Positions 508 through 3,638 are shown, counted from the stretch's first letter. The stretch is 64,000 bases of DNA from Myxococcales bacterium (GCA_016794525.1 JAEUJY010000073.1:1-64000); one strand, 5' to 3'. Notes: generated by a model from the letters alone, not told the origin. Numbers and translations: made by a program.

Positions 508-2034
508 TCACGGCGGGATCAGGAAGAACCGGCCCATCATGCCGTGGTCCTCGTGCTCGAGGATGTGGCAGTGGAACATGTACGGGACCGCGCGGTCGGC
601 CACGCCGGCGAAGCTCAGCAGCAGCCGCACCACCTGGCCGGGGCCGATCACGACGGTGTCCTTCCAGCCCGCCAGCGCCGCGGGCGGCGCCGCGCCGTCG
701 ACGTCGAGCACCTGGAACTGCCGGTGGTGGACGTGGAACGGGTGGGCCATGCCCGAGGTGTTGGTGATCGTCCACAGCTCGACGTCGCCGACCGGGATGT
801 CGAAGCTGATCGCCGCCGGCACCGTCGTCAGGTCGGTCATCTGCGTGCCGTTGATCGACACCGCGCCCATGCCCATCGCCAGGGTCACCTGGCGCGCGCG
901 CGCCGCGTCGCCCTCGGCCAGCCGCGCGATCGGCGCGAAGCTCCGCGGCGGCACGATCGTCGTCGGCGGCGGCGCGCCGACCTCGAACGTCGCCAGGTCG
1001 AAGGTCGCGCGATCGAGCCCGTCGGCGAGGTTGGCGCCCATCTGGCCGGTGAACAGCGCGCCGAACACCTCGCCCGAGTAGCTCTGCAGCGCCACCGTCG
1101 CGCCGGTGGCGTCGCCCGCGAAGTCGACCAGCAGCTCGACCCGCTCGCCGGGCGCGACCAGGACGCGGCTGGTGGTGACCGGCGCCTCGAGCAACCCGCC
1201 GTCGCTGGCGATCAGGCGAAAGCCGCGGCCGTCGGCGAAGCCGAGGTGGTAGGCGCGGGCGTTGGAGCCGTTCAGCACGCGCAGCCGCACCAGCCCGCGC
1301 GCGATCACGCCGCGCGGCTGCACCGCGCCGTTGACCAGCATCGTCTGGCCCTTCAGCCCGGCCATCATGTCGTGCATCGCGACCGTCGCGCCGCCGGAGT
1401 ACGGGTGGGTGCCGTCGGCGAAGAACCGGCGGTCCTGGATCACCAGCGGCAGATCGTCGACCCCGTAGGTCGACGGCAGGTCGGCCGGCGGCGTCGGCTC
1501 CTCGACGTAGATCACGCCGGCGAGGCCCATGTACACCTGCCGACCGGTCTGGTGCATCGGGTGCGGGTGGTACCAGGCGGTCATCGGCCGCTGCGTGACG
1601 TCGTACTCGGTCACCCAGGTGGCGCCGGGCGCGACCATCACGTACGGCCCGCCGTCGCTCGCCGCCGGCACGTGCATGCCGTGCCAGTGCAAGGTCGACG
1701 GCTCGGCCAGCGAGTTGGTGACCTCGAGCCGCACCCGCTCGCCGCGGCGGAACCGCAGCGTCGGGCCCAGGTAGGCGCCGTTGACGCCGTAGGTCGCGGT
1801 CGGGGCGCCGGCGCCGAAGTCGACGGTGCCGGCCTGCAGGTCGAGGCGGAACACCCGCACGCCGGCGATCAGCTCGCCGTCGTCGATCGGCGGCACCGGC
1901 AGCGGATCGCCGCCGTCGATCGTCACGCCGGGATCGGTGCCGCATCCGCCGAGCGTCACCGGCAGCGCGAGCGCGGTGCCGGCGGCGCCGCAGGCCTGGA
2001 GAAAACTGCGCCGCGACAGCGTGGGGCGAGTCAT
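508..2034 (-). CDS. Multicopper oxidase, Tat-exported lipoprotein
   Basis: This 508-residue protein is a three-cupredoxin-domain multicopper oxidase of the CueO/CotA/bilirubin oxidase type. All four copper-ligand motifs are visible: HWHGMH at about 116, WYHPHPMH at about 154, HPFHVHH at about 440, and HCHILEHEDHGMM at about 488. The N-terminus has a twin-arginine signal (SRRSFLQ) followed by a hydrophobic stretch and a GGC lipobox at Cys31, so it is probably a folded, Tat-exported lipoprotein. The family couples one-electron oxidation of phenols, bilirubin or Cu(I) to reduction of O2 to water. An AAAGGA ribosome binding site precedes the ATG. The adjacent ECF sigma factor resembles metal-responsive CorE types, so a role in copper tolerance is plausible but inferred. 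Confidence 0.92.
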   Translation of the reverse strand: MTRPTLSRRSFLQACGAAGTALALPVTLGGCGTDPGVTIDGGDPLPVPPIDDGELIAGVRVFRLDLQAGTVDFGAGAPTATYGVNGAYLGPTLRFRRGERVRLEVTNSLAEPSTLHWHGMHVPAASDGGPYVMVAPGATWVTEYDVTQRPMTAWYHPHPMHQTGRQVYMGLAGVIYVEEPTPPADLPSTYGVDDLPLVIQDRRFFADGTHPYSGGATVAMHDMMAGLKGQTMLVNGAVQPRGVIARGLVRLRVLNGSNARAYHLGFADGRGFRLIASDGGLLEAPVTTSRVLVAPGERVELLVDFAGDATGATVALQSYSGEVFGALFTGQMGANLADGLDRATFDLATFEVGAPPPTTIVPPRSFAPIARLAEGDAARARQVTLAMGMGAVSINGTQMTDLTTVPAAISFDIPVGDVELWTITNTSGMAHPFHVHHRQFQVLDVDGAAPPAALAGWKDTVVIGPGQVVRLLLSFAGVADRAVPYMFHCHILEHEDHGMMGRFFLIPP

Positions 2035-2154
2035 CGGGAAGTCCTTTCGAGCGGCGGGCGCGCCACGGCGCCGGCGCCGCGTTCAGCAGCCCGGGCGGGG
2101 CGGGGGCGCGTCGTCGTCAGCGGACCGCGCCGACCGGCGCGGCGGGGGGACGCC

Positions 2155-2244
2155 TCACGTGGGCACCCCGAGGCGGGGCAGCACCCAGCGGCGCAGCGCC
2201 AGCCACACCGAGAACGCGATCAGCAGGCCGAGCCAGTCGGGCAT
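2155..2244 (-). CDS. 29-residue leaderless membrane peptide
   Basis: The peptide begins MPDWLGLLIAFSVWLALRRW and ends LPRLGVPT: a single hydrophobic helix followed by two arginines. Two things support its reality. It has a normal ATG and stop. It also lies 5 bases downstream of a promoter nearly identical, in elements and spacing, to the one in front of the thioredoxin gene on the other side of the sigma gene. Transcription would begin at or very near the ATG, giving a leaderless message. The function is unknown. By context it should belong to the regulon of the divergent ECF sigma factor. It is below the usual gene-calling length limit. Confidence 0.55.
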   Translation of the reverse strand: MPDWLGLLIAFSVWLALRRWVLPRLGVPT

Positions 2245-2249
2245 CGTCG

Positions 2250-2279
2250 GGTGAGAGCCAGCCGGCGCCGAAAGGGTTC
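2250..2279 (-). promoter_or_regulatory. ECF-type promoter of the 29-residue peptide gene
   Basis: Read on the minus strand, this is GAACCC (2279-2274), a 17-base spacer ending GGCTGGC, then TCTCACC (2256-2250), followed by 5 bases and the ATG. It matches the thioredoxin promoter at 3164-3193 in both elements, in spacer length and in the GGCTGGC preceding the -10 element. GAACC-like -35 elements are typical of ECF sigma factors. The site lies in the divergent gap upstream of the ECF gene itself. Confidence 0.6.
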
Positions 2280-2322
2280 GCGGCCGGCGCCCCGGCGGTG
2301 CCGTGCTAGGGTCCCCGCCGGC

Positions 2323-3165
2323 ATGTCCGACCAGGCGCCACCCAGCGACGGCGACCCCGCGGCCGAGGCGGCGCTCCTCGACGCCGCCCGTGCCGGCGAC
2401 CGCGCCGCCCTCGAGCGGCTGATCGAGCAGCACCAGGCGCGGATCTACCGCTTCGGCCTCAAGATGTGCCGCGATCCCGAGGTCGCCAAGGACGTCGTCC
2501 AGGAGACGCTGATCGCGATGGCGCGGGGCGTCCGCGACTTCCGCGGCGGATCGTCGCTGTCGACCTGGCTGTACACGATCGCGCGCAGCTACTGCATCAA
2601 GGCGCGCCGCACCAGCAAGTTCGCGCCGCGCGACGTCGGCTCGCTCGACGCCGCGCCGGAGGCGATCGGCGTGGCCGACCCGGGGCCGCGCTCCGACGAG
2701 CAGCTCGGCGCGCGCCGGATCGAGCAGGCGCTCGAGCGCGCGATCGCCGCGCTCGACGACAAGTACCGCGAGGTGCTGGTGCTGCGCGACGTCGAGGGGC
2801 TGACCGCGCCCGAGGTGGCGGCGGTGCTGGGCCTCAGCGTCGACGCGGTCAAGAGCCGGCTGCACCGCGCGCGGCTCGACGTCCGGGCCCGGGTCGCGCC
2901 GGCGCTGCGCGACGAGGCCCCGCCGCCGTCGCGCAGCTGCCCCGACGTGCTCGGCGTGTTCTCGCGCCACCTCGAGGGCGAGGTCGACGCCGGCGCGTGC
3001 GCCGAGATGGAGCGGCACCTGGCCGGCTGCCCGTCGTGCCGCGGCGCGTGCGACTCGCTGCGCGGCGTGCTGGCGATGTGCCGCGCCGCGCCGGCCGACG
3101 TGCCCGCGCCGGTGCAGCGCTCGGTGCAGCGCGCCATCCGCGATCTGCTCGCGACCGAGGCCTGA
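2323..3165 (+). CDS. ECF sigma factor with fused C-terminal zinc-finger domain
   Basis: The 280-residue protein joins a standard ECF sigma factor (region 2 around ARIYRFGLKMC to GSSLSTWLYTIAR; region 4 around DVEGLTAPEVAAVLGLSVDA) to a C-terminal zf-HC2/ZAS-like domain. In the finger, Cys (SCPDV), His, Cys, Cys are spaced C-x25-H-x3-C-x2-C (RHLAGCPSC), the spacing I recall for the redox-sensing anti-sigma factor RsrA; further Cys residues follow (GAC, AMC). Cys-rich C-terminal tails on ECF factors are also the hallmark of metal-sensing CorE-type (ECF44) factors of myxobacteria. A self-contained sigma/sensor protein responding to metal or thiol stress is therefore likely. The neighbours, a multicopper oxidase and a thioredoxin, fit either reading. 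Confidence 0.9.
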   Translation: MSDQAPPSDGDPAAEAALLDAARAGDRAALERLIEQHQARIYRFGLKMCRDPEVAKDVVQETLIAMARGVRDFRGGSSLSTWLYTIARSYCIKARRTSKFAPRDVGSLDAAPEAIGVADPGPRSDEQLGARRIEQALERAIAALDDKYREVLVLRDVEGLTAPEVAAVLGLSVDAVKSRLHRARLDVRARVAPALRDEAPPPSRSCPDVLGVFSRHLEGEVDAGACAEMERHLAGCPSCRGACDSLRGVLAMCRAAPADVPAPVQRSVQRAIRDLLATEA

Positions 3166-3193
3166 ACCCTTCGCGCGGCGGCTGGCTCTCATC
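3164..3193 (+). promoter_or_regulatory. ECF-type promoter of the thioredoxin gene
   Basis: GAACCC at 3164-3169 overlaps the stop codon of the sigma gene. It is followed by a 17-base spacer ending GGCTGGC and TCTCATC at 3187-3193, then GGGC and the ATG at 3198. The layout copies the promoter at 2250-2279. With the start site expected 5-8 bases after the -10 element, the thioredoxin message would be leaderless or nearly so. Confidence 0.6.
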
Positions 3194-3197
3194 GGGC

Positions 3198-3638
3198 ATG
3201 TCGACCACGCCGAGCAAGCAGTCCACCATCGCGATCACCGAGCGCAACTTCGACGCGCTGCTCGCGGCCTCGGCCGCCGGCGGCATCCTGCTCATCGACT
3301 TCTGGGCCGCGTGGTGCGGCCCGTGCCGCGCGTTCGCGCCGGTGTTCGAGGCCGCCGCCGCGCGCCACCCCGACCTGGTGTTCGGCAAGGTCGACACCGA
3401 GGCCGAGCGCGGCCTGGCCGCGGCGTTCCGCGTCAGCGCGATCCCGACCCTGGCGGTGATGCGCGACGGCATCCTGCTCGCCGCGCAGCCGGGCGCGCTG
3501 CCCCCGGCGGCGCTCGACGCGCTGATCGCCAAGGTGCGTTCGCTCGACATGGACGAGGTGCGCCGCGAGATCGCCGCGCAGGCCGCCGCCCCGTCGGCCG
3601 GCAAGCCCGCGTCCGCCGCGCCCACCCCGGCGCGTTGA
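3198..3638 (+). CDS. Thioredoxin family protein
   Basis: A 146-residue cytosolic thioredoxin with the canonical active site in FWAAWCGPCR (about residues 34-43), the GKVDTEAE strand, and the cis-proline region SAIPTLAVMRDG. It differs from classical 105-residue thioredoxins in a C-terminal extension of about 35 residues ending in an Ala/Pro-rich tail. It should reduce protein disulfides with electrons from thioredoxin reductase. The ATG at 3198 is chosen because it falls just downstream of the ECF-type promoter and gives a conventional N-terminus. Placement directly after the zinc-finger ECF gene, under the same promoter type as the divergent peptide, suggests induction during thiol or metal stress. 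Confidence 0.9.
   Translation: MSTTPSKQSTIAITERNFDALLAASAAGGILLIDFWAAWCGPCRAFAPVFEAAAARHPDLVFGKVDTEAERGLAAAFRVSAIPTLAVMRDGILLAAQPGALPPAALDALIAKVRSLDMDEVRREIAAQAAAPSAGKPASAAPTPAR

Follow-up and report, generated by a model that had tools for sequence, protein, structure and literature searches.

Within a 64,000-nucleotide stretch of DNA from a Myxococcales bacterium (GCA_016794525.1, JAEUJY010000073.1:1-64000; hereafter the window), a gene for an ECF sigma factor lies between two copies of the same predicted promoter. The genes and elements of this locus are the following.

508-2034, minus strand: multicopper oxidase with a TAT-like signal (Pfam Cu-oxidase domains)
2083-2244, minus strand: predicted micro-selenoprotein gene, 53 amino acids when the frame is read through, MPDWLGLLIAFSVWLALRRWVLPRLGVPT-U-GVPPPRRSARSADDDAPPPRPGC
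2124-2143, minus strand: predicted bSECIS hairpin, GCCGCGCC(GGUC)GGCGCGGU, with its loop 19 nt past the UGA
2155-2157, minus strand: in-frame UGA, the putative selenocysteine U30; TGA at this position in 38 homologues, TGC or TGT in 6
2250-2279, minus strand: P1, predicted ECF promoter, with -35 GAACCC at 2274-2279 and -10 TCTCA at 2252-2256 (exact match)
2307-2312, plus strand: TAGGGT, a possible housekeeping -10 element for the sigma gene, recognized by eye only
2323-3165, plus strand: ECF sigma factor with a C-terminal ZAS domain, 280 amino acids (Pfam and profile search)
3164-3193, plus strand: P2, predicted ECF promoter reading into thioredoxin (exact match)
3198-3638, plus strand: thioredoxin (WCGPC), 146 amino acids (Pfam PF00085, 9.6e-22)

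A preliminary description of this DNA had proposed a matched pair of ECF promoters, and both sites proved to be exact copies of GAACCC-N17-TCTCAYC that stand far above chance. As that description had also noted, GGCTGGC precedes TCTCA at each site, and the ATGs follow the 30-mer closely, at 5 nt (2244, minus strand) and 4 nt (3198, plus strand). Shuffling the 64-kb window 100 times gave a chance expectation of 0 for the exact 30-base pattern. A weight matrix built from 30 sites, all of them from other genomes, scored P1 at 39.5 bits and P2 at 37.4 bits, against 7.9 bits for the runner-up among some 128,000 positions in the window. P1 reads into the micro-selenoprotein and multicopper oxidase genes and is kept ahead of orthologues in six other genomes (G025, G030, G032, G228, G403 and G520). 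The -35 element of P2 overlaps the stop codon of the sigma gene (TGAACCC), and the same overlap is found in G028, G024 and G191.

The genome-wide search with the 30-base pattern that had been suggested earlier found the pattern three times in the 9.8-Mb genome: at P1, at P2 and at one unlinked position.

G000, contig C116, 11197-11226 (L001, 1501-1530), minus strand: third genomic promoter copy (exact pattern)

A second, unlinked thioredoxin gene (WCAPC) has its ATG 4 nt past this site. Loosening the pattern to up to two mismatches added nothing to these three sites and gave 0 matches for the backward-read control; these genome-wide scans used patterns, and the weight matrix was applied to the 64-kb window. 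In other Myxococcota the core of the motif is GAAYCCTTY-N11-GGCTCTCA (28 nt; Y is C or T), and a scan of 377 genomes of the phylum gave 24 matches against 2 for the backward-read control, so that the promoter is indeed searchable. About 15 genomes have the motif beside an orthologous sigma gene (G000, G001, G007, G008, G018, G024, G025, G026, G028, G029, G030, G032, G152, G191 and G364), which supports the local regulon that had been deduced from the position of the sigma gene between the two sites; G028, G032 and G024 carry more than one copy at the sigma locus, as the window does. Among 35 genomes of the order, the motif was present in 10 of the 15 with the sigma factor and in 3 of the 20 without it (one-sided Fisher p = 0.0025; G026 was scored as sigma-positive from a sigma C terminus at a contig end). 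Five sigma-carrying genomes of the family had no exact GAACCC match, and GAATCC variants were found in two of these five. Matches in G017 and G021, also within the order, were set aside as likely chance, with a 29-nt spacing and no fitting gene, and among the matches listed by a contig scan with GAACCCN13-15GGCTCTCA most were due to chance. Outside the phylum, nearly all of the matches inspected (L077-L099) had no gene start at a promoter-compatible position. The promoter probably belongs to a phylum-wide switch built on a sigma factor with its own zinc-finger anti-sigma domain, which would probably activate thioredoxin and sulfur-detoxification genes.

The identification of the gene at 2323-3165 as an ECF sigma factor was confirmed, with sigma2 at residues 33-98 (PF04542) and sigma4 at residues 135-185 (PF08281), both above cut-off, and no sigma3; what had been missed was the domain fused to it, as well as the second thioredoxin. 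This C-terminal part, at about residues 206-274, is a zinc-binding anti-sigma (ZAS) domain with the signature H232-x3-C236-x2-C239 and a zf-HC2 match of 9.6e-8; compared as a profile with PDB chains, it matched RsiW (2.9e-8), RslA (5.6e-4) and RsrA (2.5e-3). No variation was seen across 13-15 orthologues at C206, C226, H232, C236, C239, C243 and C253, or at C49 and C91 of sigma2; from residue 91 there is no further cysteine until 206. The protein ends 27 residues past the last conserved cysteine in a charged helix and has no C-terminal transmembrane helices. AlphaFold modelled confident domains with no reliable arrangement between them (pLDDT 84, pTM 0.40), and a PDB structure search with the model of the ZAS domain alone listed no ZAS chain, a result that speaks neither for nor against the assignment. 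The fusion of such a domain to an ECF sigma factor is itself already known from ECF48, ECF52 and ECF53, mostly together with transmembrane helices (PMC8999054). In G008 the sigma orthologue (L206, 5641-6189) seems to have no ZAS domain: its frame ends early and no such domain is found in the other frames; a promoter copy and a thioredoxin gene lie about 1 kb from it.

The stretch upstream of the sigma gene holds no sense-strand copy of the ECF motif, so its control is probably post-translational. The sequence TAGGGT lies 10 nt before the sigma ATG and was not detected as a promoter by a consensus scan; the leader of the sigma mRNA may be very short and may come from a housekeeping promoter.

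The gene behind P1 had been described as encoding a 29-residue membrane peptide. This peptide corresponds to the N-terminal half of a predicted 53-residue selenoprotein, the in-frame UGA having been taken for a stop. The protein has one hydrophobic helix, which is probably transmembrane, and in relatives its frame continues past the UGA as LPRLGVPT-U-xVPxPRRSAR...GC. A profile search of 317 genomes of the class gave matches in 45 genomes. Reading these matches yielded 38 UGA genes (in 37 genomes) and six genes with TGC or TGT at this position (LGIPTCMSGACxVP); one other match was a YgaP-like transmembrane protein and one was unreadable. The family occurs in at least 43 genomes of the class, and its cysteine versions are confined to one family (f12). 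All 38 UGA copies have a frame that stays open for 15-39 codons past the UGA, and in the stretch between the UGA and the stem, mismatch at codon positions 1, 2 and 3 is 0.35, 0.36 and 0.64, the third being the most variable.

The hairpin provides a second line of evidence. Bacterial SECIS elements are modelled with a loop of 3-9 nt, a stem of 4-16 bp, a G in the first two loop positions, a distance of 16-37 nt from the UGA and a minimum free energy of at most -7.5 (PMC13188914). The window hairpin, with 8 bp, a GGUC loop and -21.7 kcal/mol, agrees with this model, and so does the geometry of 37 of the 38 UGA copies, against 1 of the 6 cysteine copies. Among the UGA copies the loop lies 16-23 nt past the UGA, pairing holds in 100% of the cells of the inner helix, and one pair covaries between CG (16) and UA (9). 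The genome also carries a tRNA-Sec (C60:35353-35448; RF01852, 72.9 bits with a gathering threshold of 47; ARAGORN anticodon TCA). No sel genes were recognized among the ORFs scanned near it, where GcvT was the only gene named, and SelB gave no match over cut-off in this assembly (97% complete, 177 contigs); of the 16 genomes searched in the group, 13 have a SelB match above cut-off.

The alternative that the UGA is a true stop, with the hairpin serving a 29-residue peptide as a terminator, attenuator or other regulatory element, can draw on the missing SelB match in the assembly and on the position of the GC-rich hairpin immediately past the UGA. Six homologues, however, have TGC or TGT in place of the UGA with the frame continuing, the frame is open in every UGA copy and the set carries a coding signature, the hairpin is followed by no T-run, its loop, spacing and compensatory changes agree with a bSECIS, and a tRNA-Sec is encoded. 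On the strength of the Sec/Cys pairs, the SECIS and the coding signature we rejected this alternative as highly improbable. Nearly every test applied to the sequence instead supports reading the UGA as selenocysteine, in what would be an undescribed family of micro-selenoproteins. No Pfam or NCBIfam family matches the protein, and its motif is absent from the 119 selenoprotein families and subfamilies tabulated in a 2026 review (PMC13188914); three entries of that table carry no motif, and the library searched included the NCBIfam models for them. The family resembles the bSECIS selenoproteins of that review in its in-frame UGA, its GGUC-loop SECIS 16-23 nt away and its Sec/Cys pairs, and differs from them in being a single-helix membrane protein of about 48-60 residues with the motif LPRLGVPTU-x-VP.

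Over 45 micro-selenoprotein loci, the neighbours included thioredoxin (14), DUF302 (13) and ECF sigma (9) genes. The promoter is perfect before seven copies and present in a weaker form before about eight; many distant copies have no motif, and the protein is therefore not tied to a sigma factor of the window type everywhere. On one contig (L308; G281, C94), two micro-selenoprotein genes lie about 2.9 kb apart. Two YgaP-like transmembrane proteins (DUF2892), in L307 (G013; GVSTCAVPPRRS) and at L214 4083 (G032), end in GVSTC, which is close to the GVSTU-AVPxPRRSA of the micro-selenoprotein, and a shared origin of the tail is possible. Proteins of both types are found under the motif, but the YgaP-like protein has two helices and contains cysteine, unlike the single-helix micro-selenoprotein, and the similarity between the two profiles spans only 10 columns. 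The literature searched held no link of a selenoprotein to DUF302 or YgaP.

The multicopper oxidase gene starts (2034) 48 nt past the stop codon of the micro-selenoprotein gene (2083-2085), behind the Shine-Dalgarno sequence AAAGGA (2042-2047), and no terminator was found between the two. The oxidase probably comes second in an operon read from P1, a position that the preliminary description had overlooked. That description had rightly seen only a poor promoter match before the oxidase, and a good promoter is indeed absent there, presumably because the gene is transcribed from P1. In G007 a related oxidase lies behind a site of its own (GAATCCTTT...GGCTCTCA).

We counted leader lengths from the last base of TCTCA to the start codon at more than 30 sites and found two classes. 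At 19 sites, including P1, P2 and the third genomic site, the start lies 5-11 nt away, which leaves no room for a Shine-Dalgarno sequence; in the other class it lies 15-22 nt away, with a Shine-Dalgarno-like stretch in 13 of 13 sites. No starts fall 12-14 nt after TCTCA, and a few lie beyond 22 nt. Three genes of the short class have a second in-frame start behind GGAGG, at +17, +18 and +25 (L094, L050 and L036). The two classes and their Shine-Dalgarno pattern fit a transcription start about 5-8 nt past the -10 element. The window thioredoxin, with its ATG 6 nt past TCTCA and no Shine-Dalgarno sequence, is predicted to be leaderless, and both window mRNAs, whose ATGs lie 6-7 nt past the -10 element, probably start at or a few bases from the ATG. 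The earlier proposal that both genes are leaderless is therefore plausible for this locus; it does not extend to the promoter in general, because many relatives have a leader of 15-22 nt with a Shine-Dalgarno sequence.

The genes directly downstream of the motif in the window and its relatives encode thioredoxin (many times), DUF302, YgaP-like transmembrane, OsmC and TauE proteins. Further targets are rhodanese, a YeeE/YedE-type Sulf_transp protein, an MBL-rhodanese, a Blh-like MBL protein, a persulfide-dioxygenase-like protein, multicopper oxidase and a class II amidotransferase. A CoA-disulfide-reductase-like flavoprotein gene follows a motif-like site with an aberrant spacing of 27 nt; in L225 (G228), such a gene and a lipoprotein-like gene are divergent, and the stretch between them bears two motif-like sites, one on each strand. 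In L204 (G007), the site at 1326 (minus strand) precedes a gene for a 57-residue cysteine-rich protein, MCRAITCKKCKRPSWAGCGAHVEMVL..., of no clear family. No P1B-type ATPase was seen 3' of any motif site, and neither thioredoxin reductase nor methionine sulfoxide reductase was recognized directly 3' of one. Matches before redox or metal genes had been named in advance as support for the promoter, and the targets are redox and sulfur genes. In Acinetobacter, the persulfide regulators FisR and BigR control persulfide dioxygenase, TauE and YeeE/YedE (PMC7315123). On the basis of this downstream gene set, the motif probably defines a thiol or reactive-sulfur regulon; as for the inducing signal, a metal, to which the multicopper oxidase would point, or disulfide stress would fit as well.

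Several other readings have to be weighed against this one. One is that the sigma factor is a metal sensor like CorE, whose cysteine-rich C terminus would bind copper and be required for activation, and that the regulon is a copper regulon. The window sigma factor does share with CorE and CorE2 (ECF44/ECF238) of Myxococcus xanthus (PMC3107203) the phylum, a cysteine-rich C terminus, an adjoining multicopper oxidase gene (cuoB adjoins corE) and the lack of an anti-sigma gene, and a second oxidase lies under the motif in G007. CorE proteins, however, are defined by a CXC in the sigma2-sigma4 linker (PMC8999054), where the window protein has no cysteine, and the CorE cysteine-rich domain carries C181, C184, C189, C192, C194 and C206 within 38 residues (PMC3107203), a pattern absent here, where cysteines 206, 226, 236, 239, 243 and 253 lie in a ZAS-like domain with HxxxCxxC. 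The targets in relatives are mostly thiol and sulfur genes, and no P1B-type ATPase is among them. Membership of the CorE group was rejected for want of the linker CXC and for the different cysteine pattern; copper as the signal is kept as an alternative that we consider unlikely. It would be less probable still that some other ECF sigma factor encoded in the genome, instead of the adjacent one, recognizes the motif. The genome has 48 ECF-like matches, and G013, a fragmented assembly, has the motif with no sigma orthologue found, but about 15 genomes have the motif flanking a sigma factor of the window type, several of them showing the overlap of stop codon and -35 element, and motif and sigma factor co-occur.

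A stronger competitor, which we regard as quite possible although short of even odds, is that the promoters answer to general disulfide or oxidative stress, as in SigR-RsrA, and that sulfane sulfur plays no particular part. Thioredoxin is among the SigR targets. Two thioredoxin genes lie under the promoter here, and the ZAS domain is related to RsrA, RslA and RsiW; like SigR-RsrA of Streptomyces, SigL-RslA and SigW-RsiW, the system combines an ECF sigma factor with a zinc anti-sigma domain bearing HxxxCxxC. Unlike these pairs, it has both in one polypeptide with no separate anti-sigma gene, uses a different promoter, and includes sulfane-sulfur genes and a predicted selenoprotein. The recurrent targets in relatives are genes of the sulfane-sulfur type (rhodanese, MBL-rhodanese, TauE, YeeE, YgaP-like transmembrane protein and DUF302), and the two reductases mentioned above were not among them. 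The set resembles the FisR, BigR and CstR regulons (PMC7315123), with persulfide dioxygenase, rhodanese, TauE and YeeE/YedE as targets, but those regulators are sigma54 activators or ArsR/CsoR-type repressors, whereas the regulator here is a sigma factor. The literature searched held no link of an ECF sigma factor to persulfide. Sigma factors with regulatory extensions are otherwise represented by ECF48, ECF52, ECF53 and some ECF270 members (PMC8999054). ECF48, ECF52 and ECF53 likewise carry a ZAS-type domain fused at the C terminus, but their extensions are long, they carry transmembrane helices, and proteolysis is believed to release them, whereas the window sigma factor is short and soluble.

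The reading that best explains the locus as a whole, to which we assign a probability of about 0.77, is that the adjacent sigma factor drives both sites, that its anti-sigma domain is built in, and that it serves a thiol or sulfur regulon that includes a selenoprotein. In its reduced state, with zinc bound, the ZAS domain would most likely keep sigma2 and sigma4 inactive within the one polypeptide, and modification of its thiols by oxidation, persulfidation or metal displacement would release the sigma factor. We infer that the active sigma factor would then read GAAYCCTTY-N11-GGCTCTCA before thioredoxins and reactive-sulfur or thiol-repair genes, which in this genome would be the thioredoxin at P2, the second, unlinked thioredoxin and the operon of micro-selenoprotein and multicopper oxidase. 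The SECIS would direct read-through of the UGA at 2155-2157 to yield the micro-selenoprotein, and the selenol of this protein, lying at the membrane face, would probably act on persulfide or disulfide sulfur in concert with thioredoxin, DUF302 and rhodanese proteins. A more specific version, in which the one-piece sigma factor senses sulfane sulfur (persulfide) directly by its zinc-finger thiols and controls a regulon for persulfide handling, with a new family of membrane micro-selenoproteins whose selenol passes sulfur on at the membrane, is offered as a tentative proposal that we hold to be somewhat less probable than its negation.

Taken in this way, the locus would join a soluble sigma factor with a built-in anti-sigma domain, a defined promoter and undescribed small membrane selenoproteins, which were unlinked in the literature searched. 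The UGA gene is an example of how annotation may hide micro-selenoproteins, because gene finders truncate such genes at the UGA. In Myxococcota the promoter probably serves a thiol or reactive-sulfur regulon, and it may be usable as a reporter for the signal that the sigma factor senses.
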